Positions 33,566 to 50,622 of a stretch of 64,000 nt of DNA are shown piece by piece (within the stretch, counting starts at the first letter, position 1; each line of letters begins with the position of its first letter). Below the pieces are notes generated by a model, which saw only the letters and a list, made by a program, of their open reading frames with translations, was not told the DNA's origin and did not search any database. The DNA is from a gamma proteobacterium L18 (lineage in GTDB: Bacteria > Pseudomonadota > Gammaproteobacteria > Pseudomonadales > Pseudomonadaceae). The translations under genes were made by a program, and so were the position numbers. The stretch lies in the NCBI GenBank assembly GCA_000497835.1, contig KI547164.1, positions 324,161-388,160 of the forward strand. Reading direction: 5' to 3'.

Positions 33566-33628
33566 TATTCGCTCTTTAAGTGTTAATTGGATGCTGCTAC
33601 CCCAGCATTTTGATGCCTGCGTGAGGCC

Positions 33629-34159: not shown

Positions 34160-34287
34160 CCCCCTTCAGCCCAGCGCTCTGGCCCATGGCCTATGTCATC
34201 AGCGATTTGAAGGTAGGCACCCTAGAATGGGGGGGCTTCGAACTGCTGAGCCACGGCGGATTTTCTACCCCCCACTTTAGATGGAGG

Positions 34288-35150: not shown

Positions 35151-35177
35151 CGCCTGCCTTGAGGGCAGGCACCACAA
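35151..35177. repeat. Hairpin repeat, copy 1
   Basis: GCCTGCC-TTGA-GGGCAGGC stem followed by ACCACAA. It shares CAGGCACCACAA with copy 2 at 35364-35390. Confidence 0.6.
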
Positions 35178-35205
35178 AGGATTGCATCGCGATGAAGGGT
35201 GATTG

Positions 35206-35334
35206 CTAATCGCCGTTTGAGTCGACTTTGCCTACCATAACGACGTTCCAGTGAGCTTCATCACCAAGCTTGACCAGCTTTGGGTGGCTAAAGCCAGGTG
35301 AGGGCTCATCCCACGCTGGATTTTCGGGATTATT
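35206..35334 (-). pseudogene. C-terminal gene fragment, 42 codons
   Basis: Opens after a stop with no start codon and reads NNPENPAWDEPSPGFSHPKL, then VKLGDEAHWNVVMVGKVDSNGD to a TAG. The sequence is strongly protein-like. It lies exactly between the two hairpin repeats. Confidence 0.4.
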
Positions 35335-35363
35335 TCAAATTATGGCTCAGCAATAATTTGCGG

Positions 35364-35390
35364 GTGCCTGCCTGAGGTCAGGCACCACAA
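35364..35390. repeat. Hairpin repeat, copy 2
   Basis: GTGCCTG-CCTGAGGT-CAGGCAC stem followed by CACAA; partner of 35151-35177, same orientation. Confidence 0.6.
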
Positions 35391-35518
35391 TGAGGACGCC
35401 TCGCTAGTAAGAACGGGTGCTGATCGCGGTTTTCGGCTCAGGTTTTATCCGGTTTTCCGACCAGATGCGCTTTTTCAAGTAGGCGATTGCAAATGTCTGG
35501 CAGCCTAGTGATCCGGCG

Positions 35519-36274
35519 ATGGAAGAGGCGCTGTACGAGACGACGATCTTGCGCCAGTTTTCCGGTCTGAGCCTGGAGCGAATCCCAGACGAAACCACCA
35601 TTCTCAGCTTCCGTCGCCTGCTGGAAAAACGCGAGTTGGCCACTGGCATTCTCGGCGTGATCAATGGCTATCTGGGCGACCGTGGCTTGTCACTGCGACA
35701 AGGCACCATCGTCGATGCCACGCTGATTCATGCGCCCACTTCGACCAAGAACAAGGACAGTAAACGCGACCCGGAAATGCACCAAACGAAGAAGGGCAAT
35801 CAGTATTACTTCGGCGCCAAAGCGCACATTGGTGTCGACGATGACTCGGGGCTGGTGCACAGCGTGGTGGTCACTGCGGCCAACGTGGCGGACGTGACCC
35901 AAGTCGACAAATTGCTTCACGGTGCTGAGAACGTGGTCTGCGCCGATGCAGGCTATACCGGCGTCGAGAAGCGCAAAGAACATGCTGGACGCGAAGTCAT
36001 CTGGCAGGTTGCGGCCCGGCGCAGCACCTACAAGAAGCACGGAAAACGCAGCGTGTTGTACAAAGCGATACGCAAGATCGAAAGAGCCAAGGCTCAGGTT
36101 CGTTCTAAGGTTGAGCATCCATTTCGAGTGATCAAACGCCAGTTTGGCTATACGAAAGTGCGCTTTCGAGGATTGGTGAAAAATACGGCTCAGATGGTGA
36201 CGTTGTTCGTCCTGTCGAACCTGTGGATGGCACGTCGACATTTGCTCTCCGACGCGGGAGAGGTGCGCCCGTAA
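35519..36274 (+). pseudogene. 5'-truncated IS5-family transposase
   Basis: 251 codons from an internal Met (MEEALYETTILRQFSGLS) to the normal C-terminus (NLWMARRHLLSDAGEVRP). DDE motifs GTIVDATLIHAP, CADAGYTGVEK and the KVEHPFRVIK region are intact. Upstream the frame continues only through QPSDPA and meets a TAG before the N-terminal 70 or so residues of the family, which no longer match. It differs clearly from the copy at 15496-16407, so these are two separate insertions. Confidence 0.85.
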
Positions 36275-36498
36275 TGAGGAAAATAGCCGCTGCAAGGCGC
36301 TTGCTGCGGAAAAAATGGTTGAAATAAGCGGCAGACTTGATCGATTTTGAACGGCTGCCGTTTTTTGAAATCGCCATGGCTCAGCAGTTGAGAAATAGCT
36401 GCCTACTTCAGAGCATCCTTAGGTCTGCCGCTTGAAAATGTTGCTTGTGGACAGGCCTCGGTGCGTGTCTCCGAAGCCTGACCCATGGCTGCCCGGCG

Positions 36499-36882
36499 CT
36501 ATTTCGTGGAGGGGGTGTACGGTGAGAAGTCCCGCACGTCTAACTCATTGAGCTGATAGTACTTTTCATTGGCTTTGAGGGCAGGTAGAAGCTGGCAGAC
36601 AACGTATGGATTGCCGTAGAAAGTGTTTCTACTATGGATGTTAAAAATATATTCGTCACCGAGATAATGTTGATGCTCTAGCTGAAGGTACTCAAGGCTG
36701 CCAGGCGCTTCCCCATTTTTTTCTGCGATTTCGATCACCAAGTTGCGCAGGTTATCATGATCTTTTGTGACCACTTCCACGGAGATTTTTTTCTGGCGAT
36801 GCTGATCACTGCTGAAGCCGCCGCCTGAACTGGCAGAGCCGATTCGGTTAAAGGTGATATGAGCAAGCAGTACGACTTCCAT
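36499..36882 (-). CDS. Hypothetical protein, 127 residues
   Basis: The ATG at 36882 has GAGG 8 bases upstream and starts MEVVLLAHITFNRIGSASSG. The middle is KKISVEVVTKDHDNLRNLVIE, and the end contains a Tyr-rich strand set (NTFYGNPYVVCQLLPALKAN). It is soluble and compact, with no recognised domain. The frame extends upstream to 37059 but without a comparable start. Confidence 0.6.
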   Translation of the reverse strand: MEVVLLAHITFNRIGSASSGGGFSSDQHRQKKISVEVVTKDHDNLRNLVIEIAEKNGEAPGSLEYLQLEHQHYLGDEYIFNIHSRNTFYGNPYVVCQLLPALKANEKYYQLNELDVRDFSPYTPSTK

Positions 36883-37335
36883 GGTTCGACCTCGTGATTG
36901 CGGAGCTTTCTTGATACCAGAGATTAGCCACGGGTGCGAGGTGCAAAAATTGCCTACCCGGCTGGCGTCGCTCGGGCACGCCTCCTCATGATCTCCAAGT
37001 GATGCTAGGTTTTGGTGCCGATACTGAACTGACTTAATTGCCGAGATGCCACAGACCAAGTTTGAGTCCTCGTGAACTGTTACCTGTGCTGGGCTTGTGT
37101 CCCTTTAGAAGTGGGTCAGTCCTGCATCGGCATGTAGGTCGCGATCCGCCCCAACAGGTGATATCAGCCTTGGCAGAGTCCGGTGGAATTTTGCCGGCAC
37201 CGCTTGTATCACACAGTGAAAACGTGAATCCCTGGATATGATCACGCCAACCTGCAAAGCCATCACCGTCAACCTAGGCGGATTTGATCGGCGGTGAGTG
37301 GGGCTCAAGGCGCTTTCCAAAGATGGGGCCGATGA
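36883..37335. other. Gene-poor stretch
   Basis: 453 bases between the hypothetical gene and the HAD gene end. I see only short, broken frames and no hairpin terminator or repeat. Confidence 0.4.
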
Positions 37336-37974
37336 TCAGCTCAAATTAATGCCGCTCCCCAGCACGCGCTCCGTAAATTGGGTCAGGTCGGAAAAATCTC
37401 CCCGGCCATCTCTGTGAAGCAGAAAACCCCGTACCCCAATCTCCCGGGGGCCGTCGCAATCGCACTCCTTCGAGTCACCGATCATCACCACCTCGCCGCT
37501 ATCGATTGAGTCGCTGGATGCACCCAGTAATTCGCATGTGGCTCGGAACATAAAGGGTTCTGGCTTCATGGCGCCCAGCGCGAAGCTGAACCCGAAGGCA
37601 TCTGCTGTCGGATAATAGCGCCGAACAGCGCTGGCATATGGAGCGGCCAGGTTCGAGGCAATTGCGACTCGAATGCCCTCGGCCTGCAGCCTTTCAACGG
37701 CGAGCAGACCATCGTCGAACGCCTTGATGGACGCTAAATCTGCGGCAAGGTCACCTTGGATATCAGCCATCCGAGCGGGGTGAATTTTGATTCCAAATAG
37801 CTCTGCTGCCTCGGCCAGGTTCAGATTGCGAGTGAGGATTTGGCGCAGGTCGTCAGGCTTGGGCCTACGGCCTTGGCGGATACCTTCCTTTAAGATTTGG
37901 CGGTACGGGTGCCGGCCCTTGGGGATCGTGAGGAGTGTGCCAAATGCGTCGAAGAGAATGAATTTCACGGACAT
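37336..37974 (-). CDS. HAD-superfamily hydrolase
   Basis: 212 residues from the ATG at 37974. HAD motif I is FILFDAFGTLL (nucleophile D9), motif II lies in VAIASNLAAPY, motif III in the Lys of ALGAMKPEPFMF and motif IV in VVMIGDSKECDCDGPREIG. This is a phosphoglycolate-phosphatase-like subfamily; substrate unknown. A truncated copy of its 5' end lies at 28178-28251, so this gene or its source was present twice in the island's history. Confidence 0.85.
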   Translation of the reverse strand: MSVKFILFDAFGTLLTIPKGRHPYRQILKEGIRQGRRPKPDDLRQILTRNLNLAEAAELFGIKIHPARMADIQGDLAADLASIKAFDDGLLAVERLQAEGIRVAIASNLAAPYASAVRRYYPTADAFGFSFALGAMKPEPFMFRATCELLGASSDSIDSGEVVMIGDSKECDCDGPREIGVRGFLLHRDGRGDFSDLTQFTERVLGSGINLS

Positions 37975-38224
37975 CGGGGGAGCCTGATCATTGCTGGGGC
38001 ATAGCGATGCCCAGGGCTTGCAGGATACAGTGAAAGAGGTCGGGGTATTGGGAAACTGGCAGATCCACCTGCCCAAGCCAGCGAACACCCTGAAGGTGGC
38101 TGTGGTGATCTGAGATCAAGGACATTAGGGTGTAGTGGTGCTCGCCGAGGGCTGGCTGCAACCTGGCTCATCGGCGAACTGTGCAGCGTAGCCTATGATT
38201 CTTTGAACTCCAGGAGGTTTGTTC

Positions 38225-38503
38225 ATGAAAGCAAGGATAGCGTTGACGTTGGCAGCCGGGCTGATGGTAGTAGAGTTCGCACATGCCGATACCTTTGCAG
38301 GTTATGGGTGTACCTCTGACTGTTCGGGACACAGGGCTGGTTATGAGTGGGCTGAGCAGCACGGAATTGAAGATGAGTCCTCCTGCAGCACCCCCTCACA
38401 ATCCTTTAATGAAGGTTGCGCAGCTTACATCGAAGAGAATCGTGGCAGCGGCGACTCCTCAGCCACGGACGACGATGACGAAAGTGATGACGACGATGAG
38501 TAG
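38225..38503 (+). CDS. Small secreted protein with an acidic tail
   Basis: 92 residues from the ATG at 38225, with GGAGG upstream. The signal peptide is MKARIALTLAAGLMVVEFAHA, cleaved about residue 21. The mature part has four Cys (GYGCTSDCSG; SSCSTPSQSFNEGC) that could pair in the periplasm, and ends in an Asp/Glu run (DDDDESDDDDE). The Cys-containing core resembles small periplasmic YdcA/YkfB-like peptides seen widely in gamma-proteobacteria; function unknown. Confidence 0.7.
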   Translation: MKARIALTLAAGLMVVEFAHADTFAGYGCTSDCSGHRAGYEWAEQHGIEDESSCSTPSQSFNEGCAAYIEENRGSGDSSATDDDDESDDDDE

Positions 38504-38640
38504 CTCCGTTTTTGTGTCGCGAGCGGGCCAAGCGGCCAGTCCGCCAGGGCGCTCCTGGGACACTGATCCCAGGCTGTTCGTTATGACTCACCTGAAGGTG
38601 CGCTTAAACTACTCCTTGATGGCCTGGCAACGAAGGCGGG

Positions 38641-38835
38641 GATGTCCAAAATTTTGACCTAGTGTGGCAAAAGGCGGAGCAGGTGTTTGGTGACAAAGCC
38701 AAAGCGGCTGTATGGCTGTCGACGCCTAACCATCTGTTTGGTGGCATGACCGCAATCGACTATGTGAAAAACAAGGAATACTTGGAGCTGGTGATTGAGG
38801 TGCTGGCCCGGATCGAGCACGGTTATGCCTGCTGA
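38641..38835 (+). pseudogene. C-terminal part of an Xre/MbcA/ParS-type antitoxin
   Basis: Reads VWQKAEQVFGDKAKAAVWLS, then TPNHLFGGMTAIDYVKNKEY and ends RIEHGYAC. This is the DUF2384 toxin-binding domain found in antitoxins of RES-domain toxins. No start or N-terminal HTH is present in frame (TGA at 38617), although a neighbouring frame (DSPEGALKLLLDGLATKAG) may be the rest, split by a frameshift. No RES toxin gene follows, so it is an orphan remnant. Confidence 0.65.
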
Positions 38836-38971
38836 AGCTACTGCCGGTTGTGAGAAGGTATAAACCGTCCAGGTGTAGTGAGTGCTCATTTTGCTGGGGA
38901 GGGTGCTTGGCATTTACGCCTGTGAGAACATACAGTGGTTCTGTCAAAGTCGTCAGCTCTGAGGGATCACA

Positions 38972-40018
38972 ATGAAGGTGTTTGTAAGCTCCGTCGTCAA
39001 TGGGTTTGAGCAGTACCGAGCAGCAGCTAGGAGGGCCATCACATTGCTGGGGCACACGCCAGTCATGTGCGAAGACTTTGGTGCGCGCCCGTACTCCTCA
39101 CAGCATGCGTGCATGACTGAGGTCGACCAGGCCGATATCGTCGTGTTGATCCTGGGCGCGAATTTTGGCTATCAGACGGATACAGGTGAGTCTGTGACCC
39201 AGCAGGAGTTTCGGCGTGCCAAGGCTGCTGGCAAACCGATCCTGGCCTTCCTCGAAACCGTGGAAATGGAGGAGCGCCAGAAAGTATTTTCCTGGGAGGT
39301 ATCGGACTACCTTGATGGTCTGTTCCGGGTGACCTTCATCGATCAATACCAACTCTCGGACGGCATTGTTCAGGGGTTGAATCAAATGTCCGTGAACCGT
39401 AACGCCATCTCTGAACAAGAGTTCGTGCAGCGCCTGCAGCAAAGGAATGGCAATGGTCGGTGGAGTGGTTATGATCACCAGGCCCGTCTGGAGGTAGCCT
39501 TCCTTCCACAGCCTGAAACTGCCGGCACGCTTCGTTCCGCGCATGCACAGCACGAGGCGTTTTTCATGAAGATTTGCCAGACCGGCCTGGGTTTGCTCAA
39601 AGACGGCTACAAAGACTTCGACACTGCTGAGCAGACGGGGATCGATACCCCAGAGGTCAAGTGGCGGCATCATGAAAGCGGACTCTGCTCGGTCTCTGTT
39701 TCCCTGGCCAATGCATCCACCTCGCGAAACATCATGGACTCCTTCTACCTGTCGCCTTCCTTGGTCAGAAAAGGCGCCGAGGCTGCGTTTGGCTTGCTGA
39801 GCGAAGGGAAGGGGGGCTGGTTCCAAATTGGCCTGTATGGTGTTGATCACAAGGTCTTCAAAGAGTCTCCCACGACTGCGACCAACAGCATCTCGATGCC
39901 GCATCGCTCTCAGCAAAATCTGGAGGAGCGGACTCTGTTGATCCCTGCCACGCCGGCGGCATACCGTCATTGGTTGGACGAGGTGATGTTCCGCTTTGAG
40001 CGCAAAATGTCCATGTGA
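38972..40018 (+). CDS. DUF4062-domain protein
   Basis: 348 residues. The N-terminal 130 form a DUF4062 Rossmann-like domain: KVFVSSVVNGFEQYRAAARR, PVMCEDFGARPYSS, ADIVVLILGANFGYQT and VTQQEFRRAKAAGKPILAFLE. The rest is a mixed domain I do not recognise. DUF4062 domains are TIR/SLOG-like and occur with STAND NTPases and other conflict systems, where they may bind or cut nucleotides. The start is the ATG at 38972; a hairpin follows the stop. Confidence 0.85.
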   Translation: MKVFVSSVVNGFEQYRAAARRAITLLGHTPVMCEDFGARPYSSQHACMTEVDQADIVVLILGANFGYQTDTGESVTQQEFRRAKAAGKPILAFLETVEMEERQKVFSWEVSDYLDGLFRVTFIDQYQLSDGIVQGLNQMSVNRNAISEQEFVQRLQQRNGNGRWSGYDHQARLEVAFLPQPETAGTLRSAHAQHEAFFMKICQTGLGLLKDGYKDFDTAEQTGIDTPEVKWRHHESGLCSVSVSLANASTSRNIMDSFYLSPSLVRKGAEAAFGLLSEGKGGWFQIGLYGVDHKVFKESPTTATNSISMPHRSQQNLEERTLLIPATPAAYRHWLDEVMFRFERKMSM

Positions 40019-40042
40019 TGGTGAACTGTCTCTGTCGATCTA

Positions 40043-40068
40043 AAGCCGCTTGTTATGGAGAGCGGCTT
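40043..40068 (+). terminator. Hairpin after the DUF4062 gene
   Basis: Perfect arms AAGCCGCT (40043-40050) and AGCGGCTT (40061-40068) around TGTTATGGAG. No long T-run follows. The loop resembles that of the MvaT-gene terminator. Confidence 0.6.
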
Positions 40069-40444
40069 ACGGCCAGACGCGCTTGCTCACTGAGGTCAGC
40101 CTTAGCTCGGATCGCTCCACGTCGTAAGTTGGGATAAGAATCTACAGCCTTAGCAGGCCCATTCGTGGCGTTCAGTGAAGGGAAAGATCCCTCTAACTTA
40201 TTAATAGTAGGCACATTTCGTGTGAATCTTGTAATTTCAGCCCAATTTACTTGGGCACTAGGTTGAGCTTATGAAGCATTCCATCCATGTGAATGTCCGC
40301 ACATCCGTATGGGGTGGCCAGAAGGCTGAAATTCTACGCCTAGGCACGAGCCGTGAGAGTAGCAGGGAATGTTGACCGCACAGCTGGACGTGGGTGCGCA
40401 CTATTTTGCGTCTGTTTAAAAGGTCAAGCATAAGTCGAGTTAAT
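40069..40444. other. Upstream region of the DUF2971 gene
   Basis: 376 bases, AT-rich toward the right. It should contain the promoter of the DUF2971 gene; I see no gene in it. Confidence 0.4.
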
Positions 40445-41206
40445 ATGGAAAAAATATATCACTACACAAGTTTTGAAACGTTCAAGAAGATAATTGAATT
40501 TGGCACCTTTAGATTGGGTTCGCTGGCTAACGTTGATGATGCGGAAGAGGGTTTTTTACTTGACACCGCCTCGCAGGCGCCGTATACGTTTGTGAGTTGC
40601 TGGACGAAAGACTCTGAAGAGAACATACCGTTATGGAAAATGTATGTTGACTCTGATTTTGCCGTAAGGATCGGGGTTTCGCCCGACCTTTTAGTCCCAA
40701 AACTTGTTGACCAATACTTTGTAGCCAACCAAAAAAATAACGATGCTCATGTTTTTTTGATGCATCGTGGCGGCTCAAGAGGTATGGAGTTTTTTTCGGA
40801 CGTCATCTACACAGATGAGCCTAGGCTTCGAATTGTTCAGGATTATCGTGGATGTTTTGATGAGGGCTATATATCTAGTTATGGCTTGACTAAAAGTTTA
40901 TACTGGAAATTTCAACAGGAAGTAAGATTTATTGTTCAGGGTGTACCTAAATCACAAGTAGTAAGACGGCGTGGTGCGTTGCTCTACACATGCTGTCAAG
41001 AGGTTATGGATAACTCTCTTTCTACAAATATAAATTTTATCGACATGGAGTATGACGTTAGCAAAATGCTGGCGGCTGAAATCATGCTGGGCCCATCGAC
41101 ATCTGGAGACGATGAAAAAGAGCTTAAGAAATTCCTAGATGAAAAAATGCCAAATTTCTCTGGAGAAATCTCAAGAAGTAAAGTCTATACCAGACCCAAG
41201 AAGTGA
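40445..41206 (+). CDS. DUF2971-domain protein, AT-rich gene
   Basis: 253 residues from the ATG at 40445. The family opening is IYHYTSFETFKKIIEFGTFR, followed by LANVDDAEEGF and FVSCWTKDSEENIPLWKMY; VRFIVQGVPKS is in the second half. DUF2971 proteins are found in defence islands and resemble ADP-ribosyltransferase-like folds, but activity is not established to my knowledge. Codon use is much richer in A/T than in any other cargo gene here, suggesting a separate origin. It is a single gene with a weak ribosome-binding site. Confidence 0.8.
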   Translation: MEKIYHYTSFETFKKIIEFGTFRLGSLANVDDAEEGFLLDTASQAPYTFVSCWTKDSEENIPLWKMYVDSDFAVRIGVSPDLLVPKLVDQYFVANQKNNDAHVFLMHRGGSRGMEFFSDVIYTDEPRLRIVQDYRGCFDEGYISSYGLTKSLYWKFQQEVRFIVQGVPKSQVVRRRGALLYTCCQEVMDNSLSTNINFIDMEYDVSKMLAAEIMLGPSTSGDDEKELKKFLDEKMPNFSGEISRSKVYTRPKK

Positions 41207-41782
41207 GTGGTTTTTATGCTCGCAGCGTCGGAGCGGATGAATAAAATTCGGTAACTGATTCTGTTTGTTCAAGAAGGGAGGGGCGACGTGGCGAGGGCAT
41301 TGCATATTTCGCCCTGTCGGAATTAGGTATGGCATGGGGAGGCGGGGACGGTCAGTCAGGTTAAGGACGGAGAGATCTTTGACTTGATAGCGCAGGCCGA
41401 TGGTCTTCCGACCATTTGGCCATGTCAGTCGGGAGCTTCGCCTGCTTTGGATCGCTGCAGCCGGCAATCAACAAACCAGCCATCAAAATGGCCGCCACTC
41501 TTGTGCGCATCGTATTTACCTATGTTTAAGTCGGTTGAAGCCGCGAGGTTTGCAACCCTGTTTAACCTGAGGCCTTCCTGCCCGGCGACCTCGTCCGCGT
41601 GCGGTAAACCAAATGTGACTGGCCTTGGAGCATGATGGTTATACGACAGTGGCGCAACGCCATCTAGATGGTTGAGGACAGTGCACACAAGTCCCCGGGG
41701 CAGATACGAAGTAGTGGCTCATCGCTATTGCCACACGGCTCATTGATGGGCAACCTGAGCCTATTTGCTTGGAGGCATTGCG
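41207..41782. other. Non-coding stretch with a duplicated gene fragment (41338-41403)
   Basis: 576 bases. Positions 41338-41403 repeat, with one or two differences, the part of the nucleotidyltransferase gene at 42833-42898 (GGCGGGGACGGTCAGTCAGG... to GCGCAGGCCGATG). The rest has no supported gene. GGAGG at 41770-41774 is the ribosome-binding site of the next gene. Confidence 0.75.
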
Positions 41783-43030
41783 GTGGGCGCAGAGGAAAAG
41801 CGGTACCCGAGGGAGCGGTTCACAAAGCAATTGATCCGGATGTGTGAAGCGCTGGACAAGGTATCGACGCGTGATTTGGAGTACACGTTGTTCGATGAGC
41901 CACGCGTCTGTCGCATGACAGTCAGCCAGCTTTGGGTGTTTGGCTCTTACGCACGCGGAGCTCTGACGTGCGGGGATTTAGATGTTGTCGTGAAGTACAC
42001 GAAGGCGTTGGGAGGTAAGCCAATGCCAAAGGTCTACACACGTGCTTTTTTCGGCTCAAATCCAGGTGTCAGGTTCTACGATGGGGATCCCCACGAGAAT
42101 AGCTCCGGTGCTGAGATTTCTGACGCGGTGCTCATTTGGGAAGGCGGCCACGATGAGAACCCGTGGAGGACGAGAATCGACTCGATCGTGCCTGATGCCG
42201 ATGCCGGAAGGGCTCCGCGTGAAACAGACTGCATCCCGTTGCGCTCGGAACAGTTGCGTACTCACGGTGATGATTTCATCCGTGCTGCAAAGCTTTATCA
42301 GGAAGGTTTTCTCGAATGGGATTATTTCCCTCTCGACGAGGAGTTGCTGAGCCCCATCCCTGAATCAGGTTTGTCTCGAAGAGATTCCAGGCTGATCTCG
42401 ATCGCGGCTGACATGACCCAAAAGACTCGTGATCTGGTGCCTGCCATTTGGCGCGTTGCCAACCTGACTGAACCCAATGGGACATGGAGTAAGGCCGTCG
42501 CTGAGCGCGCCACGCTCCGTTGCGGGAGCACGTTGATTCATGTCGGTAAGCCTACGTTGTCACTCCGTTGCTTCGAGAGCATGAAAAATCGCCAGCTGAT
42601 GCTGATCCCTCACCGCACTGCACGAGGCCCGAATGGCATCTGGCTCATTCGGCGCGGGCCTAAACACCCTCAGGTGCTCGGGTTTAAGAAGCGCTCGGTA
42701 TTCTTTATTGGCGTGCCTGGTACGCCTGAACTTGTCTACGCTCGGCATCAATCTGAGGATGTTCGCATCCTCGAACTGTTCGATACCAAGAGCCAGGCGA
42801 AAGCAGCGATTGCCGAGACATTCTCAAAGCCTGAGGCGGGGACGGTCAGTCAGGCTAAGGACGGAGAGATCTTTGACTTGATAGCGCAGGCCGATGTCTT
42901 GGAGCACGGCGTTGAGCAAATAGCGATAACGGATCTAGGCCGCCGCTACCTTGACCAGGCAGGGAGCGGTGAGGATAGGGAGTGGCTTGTCGGATTGTAC
43001 AGGTACTCCCAGAAACGGCGTCTTGATTGA
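41783..43030 (+). CDS. Nucleotidyltransferase-fold protein
   Basis: 415 residues from the GTG at 41783, which has GGAGG 8 bases upstream; TTG 41765 is possible but lacks this. The polymerase-beta-type NTase core is LWVFGSYARGALTCGDLDVVV, with G54-S55 and the metal Asp pair D65/D67; a third acid may be in TRIDSIVPD near residue 132. The C-terminal 200 residues are unassigned. It is much longer than MNT-type antitoxins, so an effector or a signalling enzyme is more likely. Convergent with the AbiH gene, leaving 82 bases between the stops. Confidence 0.8.
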   Translation: MGAEEKRYPRERFTKQLIRMCEALDKVSTRDLEYTLFDEPRVCRMTVSQLWVFGSYARGALTCGDLDVVVKYTKALGGKPMPKVYTRAFFGSNPGVRFYDGDPHENSSGAEISDAVLIWEGGHDENPWRTRIDSIVPDADAGRAPRETDCIPLRSEQLRTHGDDFIRAAKLYQEGFLEWDYFPLDEELLSPIPESGLSRRDSRLISIAADMTQKTRDLVPAIWRVANLTEPNGTWSKAVAERATLRCGSTLIHVGKPTLSLRCFESMKNRQLMLIPHRTARGPNGIWLIRRGPKHPQVLGFKKRSVFFIGVPGTPELVYARHQSEDVRILELFDTKSQAKAAIAETFSKPEAGTVSQAKDGEIFDLIAQADVLEHGVEQIAITDLGRRYLDQAGSGEDREWLVGLYRYSQKRRLD

Positions 43031-43112
43031 AGCAGCGCTGATGGGCTGGGGGAGGTCAGCAGTTTTGAAATTACCTCTCCCATCTCGGAGCCTTGAAAGG
43101 GAAGGGTGGATG

Positions 43113-44042
43113 TTAGTCCGGTGAGTCGCGCGCAGCAGCGTGAAGCTCGCTCCACAAGCGGTAACGGATCATCGAGGAGGCCACGCCGAATGCACCAAGG
43201 AGTTTTGTCTTGTTCTCCAAGTCATCATCAGGCCGCACCGCCACAGTCCAAGGTAAAGAGTTGTCATTTAGCGCACGCATTAAGGCTATGAAGTAAGGGG
43301 CGTCGACTGGATCAAGCGAATGGCCAAGCACCACCACTTGGTCGATATCGCTGAGGCCTGCGAAGAAGCTGGCATTGCGCTCGATGATCTCTTTCGAAGG
43401 CTTGAAGGTCGCAGAGAAGAAGTCGTCCAAAGTGCTCATGGCTTCCACGAAGCGATGGTCTGAGTCTTCATGATCCACGGCCTTGAACAGCGATGTCCTT
43501 TCCTCTGGTACCCACCCGTGGCCCAGCACAAGCTCAGAGTCGGCATCAGCTGATTCGCCGTGGATGTGCAGAACGTTCGAGGAGGGCACGTGATAGACAC
43601 TGCTCAACGTGCCTGTGTAGTTAAACGTCAGGTAGGTGGCGTTCACATCCAGTTCCGCCAAGCGGTTCTGTGCGTTGGATGCGTCTGGAATCTCGATTGT
43701 CCTGACCCATTGGGCGAAAAGCATCTGGAGTGTCTGTGATAACCCTTCAGCCACCCGTTTGACCTCGTATTGAAAGTCATGATGGCCAGCGTCGCTCCAA
43801 TTCTCGTCTGAGTACGATCCCATGAAATGTTCGAGGCTGCTGACGATGTGATCAGTGTCTAGGTGGGCAAGTGCTGACTCCAGCTCAGCCCAAAGCCCAC
43901 CGGCGGGCACGTAGTCTTCCAGCCAGTCATAGACATCGCGATCGTATGCCTTCACATAGGCCTTGAAATGGCCGTACCCGGTGGGCATGAGGTGGTTGAG
44001 GTCGAAGCCGTTTCCGATGACGTAGAGAGTCTTAAGGGGCAT
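43113..44042 (-). CDS. AbiH family abortive-infection protein
   Basis: 309 residues from the ATG at 44042. The AbiH opening is TLYVIGNGFDLNHLMPTGYGHF, with later family positions YLTFNYTGTLSSVYHV, VLHIHGE, LVLGHGW and VVVLGHSLDPVDAPYF. The first AbiH was found in Lactococcus as a single-gene phage-abortive system; the mechanism is unclear, although the fold is SIR2-like. It is a single gene here between the NTase and the recombinase operon. Confidence 0.88.
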   Translation of the reverse strand: MPLKTLYVIGNGFDLNHLMPTGYGHFKAYVKAYDRDVYDWLEDYVPAGGLWAELESALAHLDTDHIVSSLEHFMGSYSDENWSDAGHHDFQYEVKRVAEGLSQTLQMLFAQWVRTIEIPDASNAQNRLAELDVNATYLTFNYTGTLSSVYHVPSSNVLHIHGESADADSELVLGHGWVPEERTSLFKAVDHEDSDHRFVEAMSTLDDFFSATFKPSKEIIERNASFFAGLSDIDQVVVLGHSLDPVDAPYFIALMRALNDNSLPWTVAVRPDDDLENKTKLLGAFGVASSMIRYRLWSELHAAARDSPD

Positions 44043-44344
44043 TGCTCTACCTAGTTTGTGTGGGGGCGAAAGTTCATCGTCAAGATATCTGCGACTACTC
44101 TGCTTGGATAGTGCTGCCGCCGCTTCCGTCGTTCTGACTAAGAAGCGCACGGTGCAACGGAGCTGGGGGCATCTGACCTAGACTATTGCTCAAGCGTGGT
44201 CTGTGTACTAGCCAAGGCTAGAGGAGATTGAGGCGACGGAAAGTGATCCAGGACTGTTGTCGAGTCGCTCCCCATTTAAGACAGAATATCGTTGATGAAG
44301 TCCCGGATTCTTGGGGGAATTAAGTTAATTGCTGCTAGCTGAGT
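44043..44344. other. Intergenic stretch left of the recombinase operon
   Basis: 302 bases holding the AbiH promoter region and the end of the recombinase operon. I see no hairpin strong enough to call and no gene. Confidence 0.4.
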
Positions 44345-44770
44345 CTATCGAATGCGGGAGACATTTGGATTGGATTTCAAGCTCAGCAGTTCTTTCTCCA
44401 GTGTTCTCACCCGCTCCGCAAGCTGGAGATTTTGTGCGACTACTTGCTGTAATTGCTGGGTAAGAAGGTCATTCCGGGCTTGACTGGCAACGACCTGTTC
44501 CGAAGCGTTAGCTAATAGTGCTGTAGTTTGAGTGGGCGTGTGTCTGTGCAGTTCTCGATAAGCGTTAATTTCATCGATCAAAACCCTGTGATGCGGGCGC
44601 GATTTTTTTAAGTACCCTCGATCGAATCCAGATTCAACGCTCACAATTCCTGGGGTTATTTTGTGTTTGGGTAAGTTCTTATGCTGGGGAAGGAGGGGCG
44701 TACCAATCTTGAGGCGGTCAAAGCCTTGATAACATCTTTCCAAACCGTCATCGCTTGCTCGCATATTCAT
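44345..44770 (-). CDS. Small coiled-coil protein of the recombinase operon
   Basis: 141 residues. A basic N-terminal half (GTPLLPQHKNLPKHKITPG, then SRPHHRVLIDEINAYRELHR) is followed by a long coiled coil (residues about 90-135, LLTQQLQQVVAQNLQLAERV). Its ATG overlaps the stop of the preceding recombinase gene as ATGA. By position and type it resembles TnpC of Tn554 and the small third member of other multi-recombinase modules, which assist or orient recombination. Confidence 0.75.
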   Translation of the reverse strand: MNMRASDDGLERCYQGFDRLKIGTPLLPQHKNLPKHKITPGIVSVESGFDRGYLKKSRPHHRVLIDEINAYRELHRHTPTQTTALLANASEQVVASQARNDLLTQQLQQVVAQNLQLAERVRTLEKELLSLKSNPNVSRIR

Positions 44771-46803
44771 TGTTTAGGCCCTTTCTTAGCAAACGCTTGC
44801 AGTGATGTGATTTCATAGGTAAGCACCTGGTATTCACCCGAGTCGCTGGCGTATCGGGCTCGCTCCTCTTCCAGGCTTGCGATGTGAGCATTTAGAGAGT
44901 CTGGATGAATGATTGAACCATCGCACGTGGTGCAAGGTAGGACGTTGCCTAGCATGTATTCTTGGCAGTCACCGACTTTGGTACAGGCGCCGAGAAAGGT
45001 TGTTCGATAGCTGATCTCTCCCGCGACAGCCCTCTTCTGAGTCTCTGCTCTTAAGTCGGTGATGATAATATCGCCAGCTGCCCAGCGTTGACGCTGCTTA
45101 TTTATTTGGACGCCCGTCCCCCCCATGAGTTCGGTTTCGCTTAATACGGCTGAAATGAGTTCGTAAGCTGCTTGCATGGGCACGGACATCTGAAATTCGA
45201 ATAGAAAATGATTGTCAGGGAGAATATATTCATTGGTTTCTGGGTCGTAGTATCCAAATATTGATTTTATTTTCTCAAAGTTATTCCTATAGTATTTTGT
45301 CATCTGCCGCGCAAGATGCTTGAATTGCTTAGCGAGTGAAGGGAGTGAGATGAAGCCACTGCTGCTACCATGATACGCAAGCGATCTACGCAGTTGGTGG
45401 GATGTAAGTGGCCACGCAGCGCCGACGGCAAATCCATCGCCTGCTCTAAATTCACGCTGCGGATCTGAGAGTTGGAGCTCCTCCATATGGGAAGGCAGGA
45501 TGACGAGTTCTTGTAAGCAACGAGGTTTGTTTTCCGGCATCCATGAGGTAGGCTCTAGGAGCTTATTTGGTAGCTTGATGATGGAAGGTGATGAAAATAA
45601 AGGCATTTGTTCTACGGGAGTGCCGTAAATTTTAGAAAGGCCTCTGCATATTGCTTGTGCAACTCTGACGGCCCGGATCACCTCCGTTGGGGCTAGCCAG
45701 GACTCGCTGGCTTGATATCCGGTAAACTTCGTAGTTGTCGATATGACATCAACTGTCTGAGGTGGGCGACGTTGCTTGCCTTCGCTGTCAAGGATTGCTG
45801 GGACTATCTCTTCATTACGAAGGCAGTCGTATGGGAGTCTAACGACCTCTTGATCGCGCATGCCTGTGTACGTGTGAATTGTATATTTTAGTAAGTACTG
45901 TATCTTGGCAAGTGCCATTGACAGGTTTTGTCGGTACTCGCATGCATAGTCGCCGATAAACAAATCTGTAAGATAATGCCACTCTACAGCCTCGGTGAAA
46001 CATGGTAGTTCTTGATGAGGGGCAAATTTGAGTGCTCTCTCTTGAAAATCCAAAGAGTTTCCATAGGCTCGATCTGAAAATGCAGCAACAAAGCGCTCTA
46101 GGTCTGGGAGGAATTGTTCTAAATGGTTTAGCTCTCGCTGTAAAATATCTATGAGTTTTAAATACAGGCCGGTAGGTAGTATTGGAAATTGGTTTTTCTT
46201 AGGTTTGTCACTCAGCTCAAAAATTGAGAAATCTGTAACCGGAGTAAAGCCTAAGAGGCGCGGCGAAATTTTGGATAAATTTAAAAGAAGTGCCATCAGT
46301 AGCCCCTGGCTTCTTCTATCGTTCTTTAGAGATTTTACGAAGCGCTCAAGGTATGCCGGATTACTGAAGAGTTGCTCTAGAGAAATCTTTCCGATGAAAG
46401 GGTGGTCAATCTGGGAGTAACAAAAGTTTGCTGCTAGTTTGAACAAAGTGAAGTGGGTGCTGATGGTTGTTACGGAAAGTGCGCCGGCATAACCACCGAC
46501 AGAGTAATTCAAAAGGCAAAAGACTATGTATTTCAGGCTTTCCTTGATTTCGGACTGAACAGCGTCCCCATGTACAACATGAAATAACCTATCAAATCGC
46601 CACTGGCCAAGCTTTCTTCCACTTAGGCGAGCAGTGTTTGGATCCCATTTGTCGTCGCCGTAGACCGCCGTCGGTCGATCATTTGTATCCTTGAATATTA
46701 CATAGTCCGCCGGAGGGATACTCTTCATTTGACCATCACTGCCGTACAAAGTCTGTGAAGACCCTGGAGTGCTGCTTTGGCTGTACAAGTTTTCTTCGCT
46801 CAT
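44767..46803 (-). CDS. Large tyrosine-recombinase-type protein C
   Basis: 678 residues from the ATG at 46803, which overlaps the previous stop as ATGA. The C-terminal half carries tyrosine-recombinase landmarks: TYTGMRDQEVVRLPYDCL (first catalytic Arg region), TSHQLRRSLAYHG (His-x2-Arg), and a Tyr-rich stretch KYYRNNFEKIKSIFGYY downstream. Near the C-terminus C-x-x-C pairs (LPCTTCDGS) suggest a zinc site. It is far longer than phage integrases (about 400). It is the third gene of a leftward operon at the island's right end. Confidence 0.8.
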   Translation of the reverse strand: MSEENLYSQSSTPGSSQTLYGSDGQMKSIPPADYVIFKDTNDRPTAVYGDDKWDPNTARLSGRKLGQWRFDRLFHVVHGDAVQSEIKESLKYIVFCLLNYSVGGYAGALSVTTISTHFTLFKLAANFCYSQIDHPFIGKISLEQLFSNPAYLERFVKSLKNDRRSQGLLMALLLNLSKISPRLLGFTPVTDFSIFELSDKPKKNQFPILPTGLYLKLIDILQRELNHLEQFLPDLERFVAAFSDRAYGNSLDFQERALKFAPHQELPCFTEAVEWHYLTDLFIGDYACEYRQNLSMALAKIQYLLKYTIHTYTGMRDQEVVRLPYDCLRNEEIVPAILDSEGKQRRPPQTVDVISTTTKFTGYQASESWLAPTEVIRAVRVAQAICRGLSKIYGTPVEQMPLFSSPSIIKLPNKLLEPTSWMPENKPRCLQELVILPSHMEELQLSDPQREFRAGDGFAVGAAWPLTSHQLRRSLAYHGSSSGFISLPSLAKQFKHLARQMTKYYRNNFEKIKSIFGYYDPETNEYILPDNHFLFEFQMSVPMQAAYELISAVLSETELMGGTGVQINKQRQRWAAGDIIITDLRAETQKRAVAGEISYRTTFLGACTKVGDCQEYMLGNVLPCTTCDGSIIHPDSLNAHIASLEEERARYASDSGEYQVLTYEITSLQAFAKKGPKQ

Positions 46804-48701
46804 ACTATAAGTCCTACGCTTTCGAACCGAGCCATCCTGCTTTCCCAAAACGGGGTTAGGATGCCAAGTGTGAAAACCTTGTGTCTAATACGGTCAACCA
46901 TCTGTTTGTGATTATTAGAGATTGCCGCAATAGCGTCTATTATCTCACAAATTCTTTCGTCTATATTGTGGAGAATGCTGCTCTTATCTTGCGGTGTTGA
47001 TGACCAAGATTGCAGGGCATCAATCACGTACAGGGCGCTTAAGAGTTTGAAGGTGTCCTCCTCGTCCGCATGGCAGGAGTGATGAATGCAGTAAAAGCAT
47101 CCAAGTTGATTCGTGCAGGATGGCTGTATACTGATTTCTTCACTCTTGCCACGTGGATGCAGATAGCCGCTGCACCGTCCAGATGGAACTGAGAGGCCTG
47201 TGCCATCACTATTTATAAGTGATGCAGCTTTATGTACTGCTGACCAATACGCACTGAACTCATTTCGTTGGCGGTCAATGGACTGGTGCGAATAACTATT
47301 CAGGTTGGTTTCGATCGTGTGGTTTAAGGACTTGGCAATAATTTCCGGGTCTTCATTTAACGTGTGGAGGATAATGTTTTTAATTTTTCGGCTAGTTAAG
47401 GGTGGGATGTTTGTGATGCCATCGGGCAAGAAGGTTCCATGCAGTTTTTTGAAATAGTGGGCTTGAAAATTTGGGGGCAGTTGTACCGGTGTGCCCGATT
47501 TGCTGCTCAATTTTAAGAATAAATATGGTGATTCCTGCCCGTCAATTATCCAGTTCCGAAGCTGCAAGTATTTTCTAAGCAAAGGGACTCCGATTTTTGC
47601 TGAGATCGAGTAACGAGTCAGCTTTCCCCCTGCTCTGAACTTTACTGATTTTAACTGCTTTGTGATGGAGTTCTCGGCCACCGCTACTGCATTATCAAAA
47701 TCGAATTTTATAAATTCGGAAGGCGTTGCGCCTGTGAGATAGAGAAATAATTGTGCATATGCGTCTGCTGCGAGCATCGCCAATCGCATTCTAATTGGAG
47801 ATCGCGGGTCGTTTGCAAGGCGCGTGGTGGTAGCGAACCCATCATGGCGCTTTTGTGCTGTGCTTTTGCAAAGACCAAATTTTTTGCTTATTTCTAACGG
47901 GGTAAGAAGGGTATTAGTCTCGCTGTTGTAAGCAAGAATTTGGTGCCTGTTGTATTGTGTTAAATATGGACGGCCCAGCACGGGGGTAAAAGAGCAAAGT
48001 GAACCGTTGATTTCAATCGATAACGGGAGTTGCTTATTCTCCAGAACAGTAGATGACAATTTTTCGGAAAGGTCTCTGGCTGTCCGCGTTGCCTGGCGTA
48101 TATGCTCCTCGGGTGGGATGCTTCCAAAGCTTCCTTTTGGTAGCTTAAATGTCTTGATGCCCGCTATGATCTGGATGTAGTTATTTTTAAACTTCATCTT
48201 TAGGAGTTGTTTAAGTGCTAGCTGTGCACGGTAACAAAGGCAGATTTTGCAATTCTTCAGTACGAGCAGTCTATGGGTTAAGCTTTCAGTAAAAGCTTGG
48301 TATGCTTTTCGTGCATCTTCGGCTGACCTAAATAAGTCGCTGTGGTTGTTTGAGTCGCACCAATTGAGAGCATACTTGAATTGTTTAAGAGCGGAATTTG
48401 CGGATATCTCGTTATTGCTCATCGCAATGAGGTTTAGGATTTCGAGCAATACTTCCCGTCTCTCCAGTCTCAAGGTTTCCAGGCGCACAGGAGTCGGTAG
48501 CCGGGCTGCGATCATACTGTTGTTAAACACCATTTTTCGCTCAGTATAAGCGAGTGAGCCAATATCAATTGCGCTTACTTGGGCCTTTTTCAATAGCACC
48601 CTTATAAGCTCAGGGTGCTCGAAATCCTTCAGCAGCTGGCTGGGCGTGAGAGTAACTGTTTCACGGATTACGAGCGAGTTAGCTGACGTTAACTGACTCA
48701 T
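46800..48701 (-). CDS. Large recombinase-type protein B (degenerate catalytic motifs)
   Basis: 633 residues from the ATG at 48701, starting 23 bases inside the end of gene A. The architecture suggests a tyrosine-recombinase relative: a helical N-terminal region, TPSEFIKFDFDNAV and LTSRKIKNIILHTL, then SLNHTIETNLNSYSHQSI, where the nucleophile would lie. The classical HxxR box is not clear, so it may be a structural partner. A Cys/His-rich segment near the end (CTNQLGCFYCIHHSCHADEE) looks zinc-binding. Low-GC codon use. Confidence 0.72.
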   Translation of the reverse strand: MSQLTSANSLVIRETVTLTPSQLLKDFEHPELIRVLLKKAQVSAIDIGSLAYTERKMVFNNSMIAARLPTPVRLETLRLERREVLLEILNLIAMSNNEISANSALKQFKYALNWCDSNNHSDLFRSAEDARKAYQAFTESLTHRLLVLKNCKICLCYRAQLALKQLLKMKFKNNYIQIIAGIKTFKLPKGSFGSIPPEEHIRQATRTARDLSEKLSSTVLENKQLPLSIEINGSLCSFTPVLGRPYLTQYNRHQILAYNSETNTLLTPLEISKKFGLCKSTAQKRHDGFATTTRLANDPRSPIRMRLAMLAADAYAQLFLYLTGATPSEFIKFDFDNAVAVAENSITKQLKSVKFRAGGKLTRYSISAKIGVPLLRKYLQLRNWIIDGQESPYLFLKLSSKSGTPVQLPPNFQAHYFKKLHGTFLPDGITNIPPLTSRKIKNIILHTLNEDPEIIAKSLNHTIETNLNSYSHQSIDRQRNEFSAYWSAVHKAASLINSDGTGLSVPSGRCSGYLHPRGKSEEISIQPSCTNQLGCFYCIHHSCHADEEDTFKLLSALYVIDALQSWSSTPQDKSSILHNIDERICEIIDAIAAISNNHKQMVDRIRHKVFTLGILTPFWESRMARFESVGLIV

Positions 48702-50145
48702 CTTCGCGCACCGTTTCAAAAAGCCATTCTTCGTAGGAGTTTTGCGACTCAAAAGTGTCAATTATCATTTTAAACAATTTAAGATAATTTTCCGTGGTTT
48801 CGCGGTCACTATGCCCGAGTAGTGATTGAATTATGGAAATATCTTCGCCGTACTTAAGGTATTTTTTCTCGATCCCAATCTGAAGGTGTTGCCAGGTTTG
48901 GTATGCGAAAGTTGCCCGGAGCCAGTGGAAGGTGAAGTCTTTGGGCAGACTATTGCCCATCAGTCTAGCAAGCCTCTTTTTAAATGTTCCTGTTACTTGG
49001 CCTCGTGGCACCGTTTTCAAGATAGGATAGCGAAGATCATCTTGCGCCATGTAGTAACAGTTTGCTTGGTCAGAAAGGAAGAGGTAAATGTTTTCTTCGG
49101 CAGGTAATGGGAGGTCTGGGTGGTGAGTGGAGAAGTTTGTTAGAAATTTACGCTGACGTTTTTTTGCGGTAGCGCAGGAGCCCCAGATCAGCAATTTTTC
49201 AGCAAGCTTCTTAGATATGTAAATCGCATGATTTTTACCTCCTTTTGTATCAATGCCACTTCCTGGGCCAATATGTAATTTGTATTTTCCATTCCGCTTT
49301 AGTTTGTCTTCGGTAAACCCTATCAGATGTTTTAGCCGGATTGTGAGTAACGTTTGTTTTCTGGCTCCAGTCTCCACTGCCAGTTCGATAATCAGTCGGT
49401 CTTGTACGCTAAATTCTCTGCTAGTGATTGCGATATGGAGCTTTGAGAGTTGATCGTTATTAAGCGGTGTAAGATCTTCTCCATCGTCACGAACAAAGCC
49501 TTCGGGCACAGAAGATGCTGGGGCCGTACGCACAGTCATGCTTCTCTTCAAGCCTTCAACAGGGATTTTACCATTTCTAGAGTTTACGTACCGTTTATAC
49601 GGTGTAGTACTATCAACAAGCTCAATGTTGAGATCGATCCAGTATTTAGATGCGTGCAAGTAGAAGTCATAAATTACTTTGGTTCTTGCATTAATACCCG
49701 TACTAGTCAGGCCCGGAAGAGTTTTAAGGTGGTTGAAGTAACGGCCATAAGGACGATGTGCTGGTCGTTTGCCAGAGAAATCCTTCCAGTCAATACCGTT
49801 CTTTTCGCAGAAGGCTTGATATTCTATTAAAATTGGTGCTTGGCGTCGCGCTTCGTCAGTAGGGCGGTCTTGTTGATGTTTGTTGATAATTAAGTGATAA
49901 ATATAAGAATTGGCCTCAAGCCAAGGCGTTCCATCACTCTTGAACAGAAACGGATAGTTGTAAGCAGATTTTAATACTTGGTCGCCGTACTCGGGAACGT
50001 GATAGACATTGATATTACTACCTATCAGTGCTCGCTCATGCGCTCCAGGTGGGGCGTCTGTTAGGTAGACCTCGTCAAACGCATTCTCGACGTGGGGAAG
50101 AATCACCAAGCGTCCGGAGTGGTTGGGATTCTCAAACGGGGGCAT
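48679..50145 (-). CDS. Tyrosine recombinase A (integrase), first gene of the mobility operon
   Basis: 488 residues from the ATG at 50145, with AGGTGA upstream. The catalytic residues are visible, numbered from a GTG three codons earlier: R265 (ETGARKQTLLTIR), H410-R413 (FHWLRATFAYQ), H448 (LLGHSD) and nucleophile Y457 (TTENYLKLF). It carries an N-terminal SAM-like region. The gene starts only about 120 bases from the island's right boundary, and the ATTGACA array lies in that space, so it probably acts on the adjoining end and may be regulated by the same sites. Confidence 0.9.
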   Translation of the reverse strand: MPPFENPNHSGRLVILPHVENAFDEVYLTDAPPGAHERALIGSNINVYHVPEYGDQVLKSAYNYPFLFKSDGTPWLEANSYIYHLIINKHQQDRPTDEARRQAPILIEYQAFCEKNGIDWKDFSGKRPAHRPYGRYFNHLKTLPGLTSTGINARTKVIYDFYLHASKYWIDLNIELVDSTTPYKRYVNSRNGKIPVEGLKRSMTVRTAPASSVPEGFVRDDGEDLTPLNNDQLSKLHIAITSREFSVQDRLIIELAVETGARKQTLLTIRLKHLIGFTEDKLKRNGKYKLHIGPGSGIDTKGGKNHAIYISKKLAEKLLIWGSCATAKKRQRKFLTNFSTHHPDLPLPAEENIYLFLSDQANCYYMAQDDLRYPILKTVPRGQVTGTFKKRLARLMGNSLPKDFTFHWLRATFAYQTWQHLQIGIEKKYLKYGEDISIIQSLLGHSDRETTENYLKLFKMIIDTFESQNSYEEWLFETVREDESVNVS

Positions 50146-50175
50146 TGAGATCACCTGAGCGATTAACCGACAAGA

Positions 50176-50253
50176 GTCAATCTCTCAGGACACGCGGACT
50201 GCGTCAATCCTATGTCAATCTTAAGCGATAAACGGCTCTGTCAATCTGTCTAT
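50176..50253 (-). repeat. Right-end ATTGACA array (four or five copies)
   Basis: On the minus strand ATTGACT (50175-50181), ATTGACG (50202-50208), ATTGACA (50213-50219), ATTGACA (50239-50245) and a weaker ATAGACA (50247-50253). All point into the island, mirroring the left-end array. Confidence 0.75.
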
Positions 50254-50622
50254 GTTAAGCACTAAGCAGGCGCCGTAGGGGTGCAGGTCGGGCTCGATGC
50301 CTTTCCACACGAAAAAGTCGTAGTCCAGCGGCTTGGGCAGTTCGTCGAGCAGTTCGAAGCCGGCGGTGCCGGGCACGCAGTGGCTGACCCAGGTGATGTC
50401 GGCGTTGGGCAGGTTCAGCGGTTGCAGCATCTGCACGGGGCTGTCCACCACCCAGGCGGCTTGTGGCGAGTGGGCGTCCTTGCTGCCCAGGCGCAGGCTG
50501 GCGAAGCTGGCCAGATGGTTGAGCGCCGCGCCGATCAGATGGCCTTCGGGCACCGGCAGTTCGGCCGGGCAGAGGGGGGTGAAGCCTTTTTGGGCGTCGA
50601 TGTCGAAACTGGCGATCTTCAT
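50221..50622 (-). pseudogene. pncA: 5' half of nicotinamidase pncA, cut off by the island
   Basis: Native sequence runs from the ATG at 50622 to 50265: FDIDAQKGFTP (catalytic Asp), GSKDAHSP, WVSHCVPGTAGFEL and the Lys/metal region WKGIEPDLHPYGAC. The open frame then continues 14 codons into the island (LVLNIDRLTEPFIA) before stopping at 50221. It keeps the metal site and two catalytic residues but lacks the active-site Cys, which sits in the 3' half at 12844-13124. A folded active enzyme is unlikely. Confidence 0.92.
50265..50272. repeat. Right 8-bp direct repeat (attR core)
   Basis: AGCAGGCG, identical to 13125-13132. The next base differs on each side, so the identity is exactly eight bases. 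Confidence 0.85.

Follow-up and report, generated by a model that had tools for sequence, protein, structure and literature searches.

A four-gene recombination module in a Pseudomonadaceae defence island probably belongs to the strand-biased circularizing integrative elements

Introduction

Four genes that overlap one another on the minus strand of gamma proteobacterium L18 (Pseudomonadaceae; GenBank assembly GCA_000497835.1) raise the question of which kind of mobile element they drive. They lie in the 64,000-nucleotide stretch of contig KI547164.1 (positions 324,161 to 388,160) analyzed here, referred to as the window. A first-pass annotation, made from the letters and a list of open reading frames (ORFs), had described a mobility module at the end of the stretch shown, in which three large proteins of the tyrosine-recombinase type are joined by a small coiled-coil protein, with no exact match among known gene sets. 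The quartet is real, well conserved and belongs to a described class. With a probability of about 85%, the four genes supply the recombination functions of a 37-kb mobile island that belongs to the strand-biased circularizing integrative elements (SEs). SEs are poorly understood mobile DNA that carries resistance genes and, in this case, phage-defence genes. The literature on SEs and related elements is cited here from extracts of the papers.

Results and Discussion

The module matches the SE core genes

Gene A (intA, 48679..50154) encodes 491 aa from a GTG start or 488 aa from the ATG at 50145, gene B (tfp, 46800..48761) 653 aa from TTG or 633 aa from the ATG at 48701, gene C (intB, 44767..46848) 693 aa from TTG or 678 aa from the ATG at 46803, and gene D (srap-like, 44345..44770) 141 aa, all on the minus strand. 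With the ATG starts, the ORF coordinates of the window bear out the annotated overlaps of 23 (A/B), 4 (B/C) and 4 (C/D) bases. The module begins ∼120 bp inside the right end of the island, and the annotation was right to place a mobility module there.

The same quartet has been published as the SE core genes intA-tfp-intB-srap (PMC10214605, PMC9345347, PMC11064530; PMC8373256 is likewise cited on family identity). The statement that no exact match was known does not survive this, and the novelty claimed for the set, which was to lapse if one named family turned out to have the same genes, largely lapses with it. Sequences of the window and its relatives served to build profile hidden Markov models (HMMs) for A (39 rows), B (40), C (38) and D (26), which were run against the ORFs of 14 plasmid stretches. 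The quartet beside blaGMA-1 on pAQU1 (locus L105) was matched by A at 1.5e-30, B at 9.7e-19, C at 3.4e-35 and D at 5.1e-10, and SE-Pda04Ya311 has been reported on pAQU1 with the GMA beta-lactamase (PMC10214605). A quartet beside a MexC-like gene (L103) gave 9.6e-51, 6.6e-36, 6.2e-45 and 2.5e-15, respectively; its fourth protein, WP_023443007.1, bears the Srap accession given for SE-PaeBT2436, while the accession of its second protein differs (PMC10214605). In both cases the matches were one-to-one and collinear, each protein being found by the expected model. It is on these collinear matches, together with the residue patterns described below, that the assignment to the SEs is based.

The organization agrees as well. 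In SEs the four core genes lie at one end, in the order catalytic, non-canonical, catalytic, small, and SE-6283, SE-6945, SE-Pda04Ya311, SE-PaeBT2436 and SE-PaeJB0032 are, like the window island, inserted at a specific site. The 37.1-kb island is also similar in size to SE-PaeJB0032 (37.8 kb; PMC11064530).

IntA and IntB carry complete catalytic sets

Alignment of IntA placed the catalytic residues at R265, K304, H410, R413, H448 and Y457, with H448 present in 37/39 rows and the others in 39/39; the R-H-R-H-Y set ascribed to protein A is thus confirmed. For protein C only R and HxxR boxes had been noted. Both stand (R331 and H484xxR487), and the set is in fact complete, with K374, H511 and Y520 in addition; a C-terminal cysteine cluster (C622/C628/C639/C642) follows. 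The description of three tyrosine-recombinase-type proteins accordingly holds for A and C by catalytic set, and B is a recombinase-fold protein lacking the full set.

HMM comparison with recombinase families, which the annotation had suggested, was of partial help. IntA matched PF00589 (Phage_integrase) over the cut-off (1.5e-12), IntB matched it below the cut-off (0.0011), and neither Phage_integrase nor PHROGs gave a match for B. Generic integrase matches were found in PHROGs for A and, weakly (0.038), for C. In NCBIfam no model exceeded its own cut-off for any of the four proteins, and in PADLOC none of them matched at E ≤ 0.01. When 42 IntB sequences were placed in a tree, the window protein joined Pseudomonas rows in a supported five-member group (96/91), where it occupies a long terminal branch (0.97); its best identity is 42%.

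The annotation had pointed to the gamma-mobile-trio (GmtX/Y/Z) islands as one comparable set. These are recombinase-bearing defence islands, a description that would suit the present island. No Gmt model matched A–D in NCBIfam at E ≤ 1, in a library that includes a GmtY model, and there are four genes here, not three; this identity is considered extremely improbable.

Tfp retains a tyrosine at the nucleophile position

The lack of a clear HxxR box and the zinc-like motif noted for protein B were both recovered. T346 occupies the column of the first catalytic arginine and L455 that of the HxxR histidine, and the motif is a cysteine cluster, C530/C549/C555/C558. K374, R458 and Y490 are retained. 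Among 23 Tfp sequences from the groups found, the invariant columns were P246, K374, R376, R458, Y490, C530, C549, C555 and C558, and in a second set of 33 rows K374, R458, Y490 and the four cysteines were likewise invariant; the first arginine was present in 0/23 and 0/33 rows, and so was the HxxR histidine. One additional row, L120, has a broken B gene and yields a fragment with no visible tyrosine. K374 and R458 align with the conserved lysine and the second arginine of IntA and IntB, and Y490 aligns with the nucleophile, nine residues past H481 as Y457 is past H448 in IntA.

Structure prediction of B, also proposed earlier, supported the fold in part. The AlphaFold model (mean pLDDT 81.5, pTM 0.61) aligned with known recombinases, and Foldseek returned nothing at or below E 0.001 (best 1.8e-3). 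In a second look at Foldseek's own list for this model with VIA-align, B was superimposed on XerH with Z 12.5 and a root-mean-square deviation (rmsd) of 4.1 over 273 aligned residues, on the Tn1549 integrase with Z 12.3 and rmsd 4.0 over 267, and on XerA with Z 13.6 and rmsd 14.1; two other rows gave rmsd 9.7 and 10.1. Several aligned ranges stop at B residue 492, opposite residue 381 of the Tn1549 integrase, whose nucleophile Y379 is the residue mutated according to the title of a related structure entry. Residue 492 also stands opposite 326 in one Cre entry, 346 in XerH, 317 in HP1 integrase, 725 in human topoisomerase I and 276 in poxvirus topoisomerase, for which we take the nucleophiles to be Y324, Y344, Y315, Y723 and Y274. 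Provided that the final residues align gap-free, Y490 of the predicted model would sit on the nucleophile in each of these pairs; the comparison concerns range ends only, and other rows end elsewhere.

Tfp has been described as lacking the catalytic RHRY residues (PMC10214605). The present alignments agree with this for the first arginine and the histidine and disagree for the second arginine and the tyrosine. That Tfp keeps an invariant tyrosine in the nucleophile position, along with the lysine and the second arginine, was not encountered in the available extracts of the SE literature.

The Srap-like protein

Protein D has a conserved VSxEAGFDRGYLKKSR in its N-terminal part, and its model shows a long C-terminal helix (residues 81–133) that may form a coiled coil. 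No fold was assigned, since no PDB entry reached E ≤ 0.001 in Foldseek (best 4.4). Pfam matches were weak and below cut-off only, and those in PHROGs were weak and unrelated (best 0.0036, a spanin).

Island ends and arm-like sites

The island lies between two copies of the octamer CGCCTGCT on the minus strand, the attL core on the gene-A side (50265..50272) and the attR core on the distal side (13125..13132), and measures 37,132 bp (13133..50264). Four GTCAA sites on the plus strand at 50176, 50203, 50214 and 50240 (span 50176..50244) read as TTGAC inward from the gene-A end, and six TTGAC sites on the plus strand lie at the far end at 13139, 13152, 13211, 13236, 13267 and 13309 (span 13139..13313), most of their spacings being common to four other elements.

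These arm-like sites were counted in 23 lineage elements, i.e., the window and 22 loci, some of them mutually close, for which 90 nt or more before A were available. In the 100–150 nt before A there were 39 TTGAC in operon orientation and 0 GTCAA (first-order random model, 500 draws: mean 4.3, maximum 12); at least one TTGAC was present in 20/23 elements, at least two in 15/23 and none in 3/23. The last 250 nt of the five elements with both ends mapped (window, G045, G053, G217 and G255) held 25 GTCAA and 4 TTGAC, against a random expectation for GTCAA of 2.2 (maximum 6). Distances of GTCAA to the core recur: 187/143/111/85/27 in G217, 187/143/85/27 in G053, 143/111/85/26 in G255, 186/142/111/85/75/27 in G045 and 181/139/108/83/24/11 in the window. 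Outside this lineage, at most one TTGAC was found upstream of intA in 21 quartets from other groups and in distant relatives, L117 with two being the exception. A second clade (17 elements) had 9 TTGAC and 8 GTCAA; as 9 is the maximum of 500 random draws, no enrichment is claimed there. Such arm-like sites at conserved spacing were not encountered in the extracts of the SE literature.

The four relatives with both ends, all inserted at hrpB, have different 6-bp cores at attL and attR (CGAAGC/CCGGCC in G255, CGAAGC/CCAGGT in G053, CCAAGC/CCAGGT in G217 and CCAAGC/GTGGTA in G045), which is consistent with the SE footprint rule; the division into core and arms is that of this analysis. Two anchors bracket the cores of G053, G217 and G255, (T/C)AAC at 8 on the side of gene A and, on the far side, GTCA at 11; G045 lacks both, and in the window the octamer stands next to the same anchors at its two ends. 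For most SE core genes on chromosomes of Pseudomonas and Acinetobacter, identification of the termini is reported to have failed (PMC10214605). The window and its four relatives offer mapped ends, conserved arm-like arrays and targets.

The window island differs from SEs in several respects. Its target is pncA-like, a name absent from the main text of PMC10214605, it carries defence cargo, and its core has 8 bp where the core/footprint of SEs has 6. TTGAC arrays stand at both of its ends, whereas the 220 nt upstream of intA contain none in L103 and one in L105.

SE termini are imperfect inverted repeats of 13–19 bp. The terminal arms of the window island, TAGTGCTTAACATAG and, at the other end, GTGGGTTTGACACC, have bases in common only in part, as judged by eye.

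Weighing the SE assignment against related elements

One alternative is GInt (ginABCD), a sister class of four-gene Pseudomonas islands with ordinary or replicative excision. Like the window island, GInts combine four essential genes, three recombinase-fold proteins plus a small one, and cargo (PMC5385486). They share the gene number, Pseudomonas hosts and direct imperfect flanking repeats with it. The module is of similar length, with 5.8 kb from the 5' end used in pGInt0 (PMC5385486), and the island is near the reported GInt median of 34.9 kb (PMC10214605). The distribution of catalytic residues argues otherwise. In GInts, matches to catalytic integrase domains are seen for GinA and GinB, and it is GinC, the third protein, that is without the first arginine (PMC5385486); in the window quartet this arginine is missing from the second protein, and the third carries a complete set. 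In addition, each window protein has its counterpart among the SE proteins, most GinC reportedly have no BLASTP match to Tfp, and the GInts are reported as a separate protein cluster (PMC10214605). A GInt is considered quite improbable.

Two sets of loci were tried as GInts and rejected. In L107, L108 and others (second proteins of ∼535–565 aa) it is again the second protein that lacks the first arginine and the third that has it. Proteins of ∼700 aa with weak matches to the C profile (e.g., L126) look like another recombinase pair; in NCBIfam the first protein of such a pair had generic Xer matches and the second had none.

The comparison with Tn554 (tnpA, tnpB, tnpC) in the first-pass annotation was a sensible analogy, since core bases are brought from the donor there too (PMC10214605, PMC12486829). 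Tn554 has three genes and no Tfp counterpart (PMC10214605), and the window has four including a Tfp match; the two are set apart by description. Recombinase-in-trio (RIT) elements resemble the window in having three adjacent recombinase genes. The recombinases of the RIT archetype have 315–410 aa and all possess the catalytic tyrosine (PMC10214605), in contrast to proteins of 488/633/678 aa and a fourth gene here. Tn554, RIT and the gamma-mobile-trio were all rejected as the family of the window quartet.

Several observations weigh against membership in the SEs. Identity to the SE proteins is low (B, 16% to L103 and 14% to L105; C, 20% and 16%), and L105 forms a long branch across the midpoint root of the IntB tree, where its placement is uncertain, the window group lying on the L103 side. 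The octamer CGCCTGCT is identical at both ends, and by the flanking anchors the core has 8 bp, not 6; most simply, the element would last have left a donor site with an identical core, e.g., another pncA. SEs are defined by strand bias and a missing empty donor site, and the window island is known from sequence alone. The GInts were set apart by published descriptions. Finally, given the betaproteobacterial and Campylobacterota quartets described below, the authors of PMC10214605 may have drawn the SE family more narrowly.

A possible role for Tfp in strand bias

In SEs, recombination of attL with attR joins mainly the top strand, and the circle is double-stranded and nicked, with no empty site seen (PMC10214605). 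If the window island behaves like the family, IntA and IntB, aided by Tfp and Srap, would join attL and attR with mainly one strand exchanged; the joined strand would be copied into a circle keeping a few bases from the left of the element, and the circle would later insert at another target, where those bases would end up at its right end. IntA and IntB would perform the chemistry on the exchanged strand. Tfp might occupy core half-sites as a recombinase-fold protomer unable to complete the normal reaction, leaving the second strand unexchanged, and Srap and the TTGAC arm-like sites might help the complex to assemble.

The division of labour among the proteins, called unknown in the first-pass annotation, is still largely so. 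In SE-6283 the circle junction was missing after single knockouts of intA, intB or srap; complementation succeeded for srap alone, and attempts to delete tfp failed (PMC10214605). It has been suggested that the products of CDS2 or CDS4 prevent rejoining on the host side (PMC9345347). The idea of a block by Tfp is close to that suggestion; the part added here is that its incomplete active site would make the reaction one-sided. Half-of-the-sites activity has been invoked for Tn552-II, with no Tfp in the extracts of that paper (PMC12486829), and the words 'tetramer', 'half-of-the-sites' and 'arm-type' are absent from the extracts of PMC10214605 and PMC9345347.

Tfp may go beyond a dead DNA-binding protein and be the built-in cause of the strand bias, a proposal put forward tentatively and held to be unlikely as it stands. 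It could provide non-cutting protomers in a mixed synapse, so that the element is copied out, or lend its tyrosine in trans to a site completed by IntA or IntB. Active sites shared between protomers, as in Flp-type recombinases, offer an analogy for the latter. If the Tfp tyrosine is functional, one-strand exchange by a tyrosine-recombinase element becomes testable by single point changes. The conserved tyrosine of a supposedly inactive Tfp and the arm-like arrays are worth a look.

Insertion targets

The island splits a host pncA-like gene on the minus strand. The 5' part (50265..50622) ends with CGCCTGCT at 50272–50265, and the 3' part (12844..13132) resumes with the same octamer at 13132–13125, followed by pncB-like and nadE-like genes. 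The gene is whole in nine relatives (L080–L088), reading for example ...CACCCCTACGGCGCCTGCTACCACGACC... with differences. In an intact relative its NCBIfam match remained below the cut-off (65.5 bits vs 174); the next gene in that relative matched nicotinate phosphoribosyltransferase over the cut-off, and nadE was named by eye. The name nicotinamidase is given on the strength of these neighbours and of the below-cut-off match, and the split target is a putative nicotinamide-salvage gene. Apart from the two halves, the host genome gave two matches, with E 0.19 and 0.34; with no other close homologue there, the putative nicotinamidase was probably lost.

Within 900 nt before A, the 3' end of hrpB was found in 18 of 40 loci of the genus and that of an mscS-like gene in 4; 18 had neither, three of which had too little sequence before A. 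Among 44 loci from named genomes, an hrpB end lies upstream of A in 31, and 3 have no A gene. TIGR01970 confirms the name hrpB for one internal copy; mscS was named by eye. No pncA or pncB match at E ≤ 1e-5 was found in these 84 stretches, which makes the pncA target unusual for the lineage. L159 has no hrpB upstream of A (∼3400–3504); by eye, its insertion is apparently in an alcohol dehydrogenase gene, and its GGCGTCTGC resembles GGCGCCTGC of the window.

In 8 of 23 lineage loci (L039–L061) a spare full-length hrpB (840–863 aa) lies within the element, directly past the srap gene or its remnant, with an hrpB end upstream of A: L043 (4360–6918), L044 (14428–17019), L048 (14291–16825), L049 (13889–16423), L051 (14025–16559), L056 (13523–16090), L057 (3444–5966) and L061 (2985–5552). 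Downstream sequence is short in several of the others. The spare copy resembles the 'tgl' target copy of Tn552-II (PMC12486829); a spare hrpB in hrpB-inserted elements was not encountered in the extracts of the SE literature.

Distribution of the quartet

Matches to B were found in 45 of 298 genomes of the genus, the host genome included, so the module is not a chance arrangement. The 40 loci examined (up to 20 kb each) come from 39 of the 45 genomes, the five with the weakest matches being left out. Genes A, B and C, or recognizable pieces of them, occur in the same order and on the same strand in all 40, and D was matched at E ≤ 1e-3 in 27 by a single-sequence search. L039 (ending before D), L050, L051 (short D), L053, L058, L060, L061 and L068 are broken or cut by contig ends. 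The 44 loci from named genomes, many of the same species as the genus set, were obtained by scanning contigs with the IntB alignment. They belong mainly to Pseudomonas and Stutzerimonas, and also to Alteromonadales, Halomonas, Oleispira, Spongiibacteraceae and Enterovibrio, and include one locus each from a betaproteobacterium (L189) and a member of the Campylobacterota (L190).

All four genes occur in L189 (Deefgea, a betaproteobacterium), in L190 (a metagenome-assembled genome (MAG) of Sulfuricurvum, Campylobacterota) and in L099 (a Paraburkholderia plasmid stretch), and 29 plasmid records matched B, Paraburkholderia and Cupriavidus among them. Of 398 genomes of the phylum, 8 matched the B alignment, including the host genome and one other of the genus; four matches were strong, one of them (G418) from outside the class. 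Tfp and Srap homologues have been reported absent from Alpha- and Betaproteobacteria (PMC10214605); full four-gene sets from Betaproteobacteria or from a Campylobacterota MAG were not encountered in the extracts of the SE literature. Five loci (L107, L108, L109, L110 and L115) represent quartet groups with shorter proteins (∼380–385/535–560/613–642/134–151 aa) in the same catalytic/non-canonical order, some quartets of this type lying, by eye, inside umuC-type genes.

Cargo

The island is, by its predicted genes, a defence island carrying anti-phage genes. A Thoeris-like block on the minus strand (29879..32540) comprises a ThsA (29879–31198) and two ThsB-like TIR proteins (31158–31655 and 31698–32540). 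A SIR2_2 protein (16981–19521) and an AAA_13/PDC-S06 protein (23787–25988), both on the plus strand, delimit a cargo block (16981..25988) with other genes between, and an AbiH-family protein (43113..44150, minus strand) adjoins D. PDC-S64 and PDC-S31 are further families represented. In keeping with SEs, no conjugation genes were noticed among the listed ORFs, for which no dedicated search was made.

Two transposase-like genes, identified by eye (15496–16407 and 35519–36274), lie in inverted orientation and are 70% alike over 436 nt. Fragments are duplicated at 41339–41402/42833–42896 (98% identical) and 28182–28255/37905–37978 (85% identical, one copy inside a HAD-hydrolase gene). Cargo of this kind, together with the single copies of B and C found in the host genome, would fit a decayed, immobile remnant, a state compatible with an SE origin; as A–D are all open and full length and both ends and the arm-like sites are present, it is thought unlikely.

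The SIR2- and ThsA-like proteins are possible NAD consumers, and the gene split by their island, which lies upstream of pncB-like and nadE-like genes, putatively serves nicotinamide recycling. This is probably a coincidence; the insertion may have altered NAD salvage in the host.

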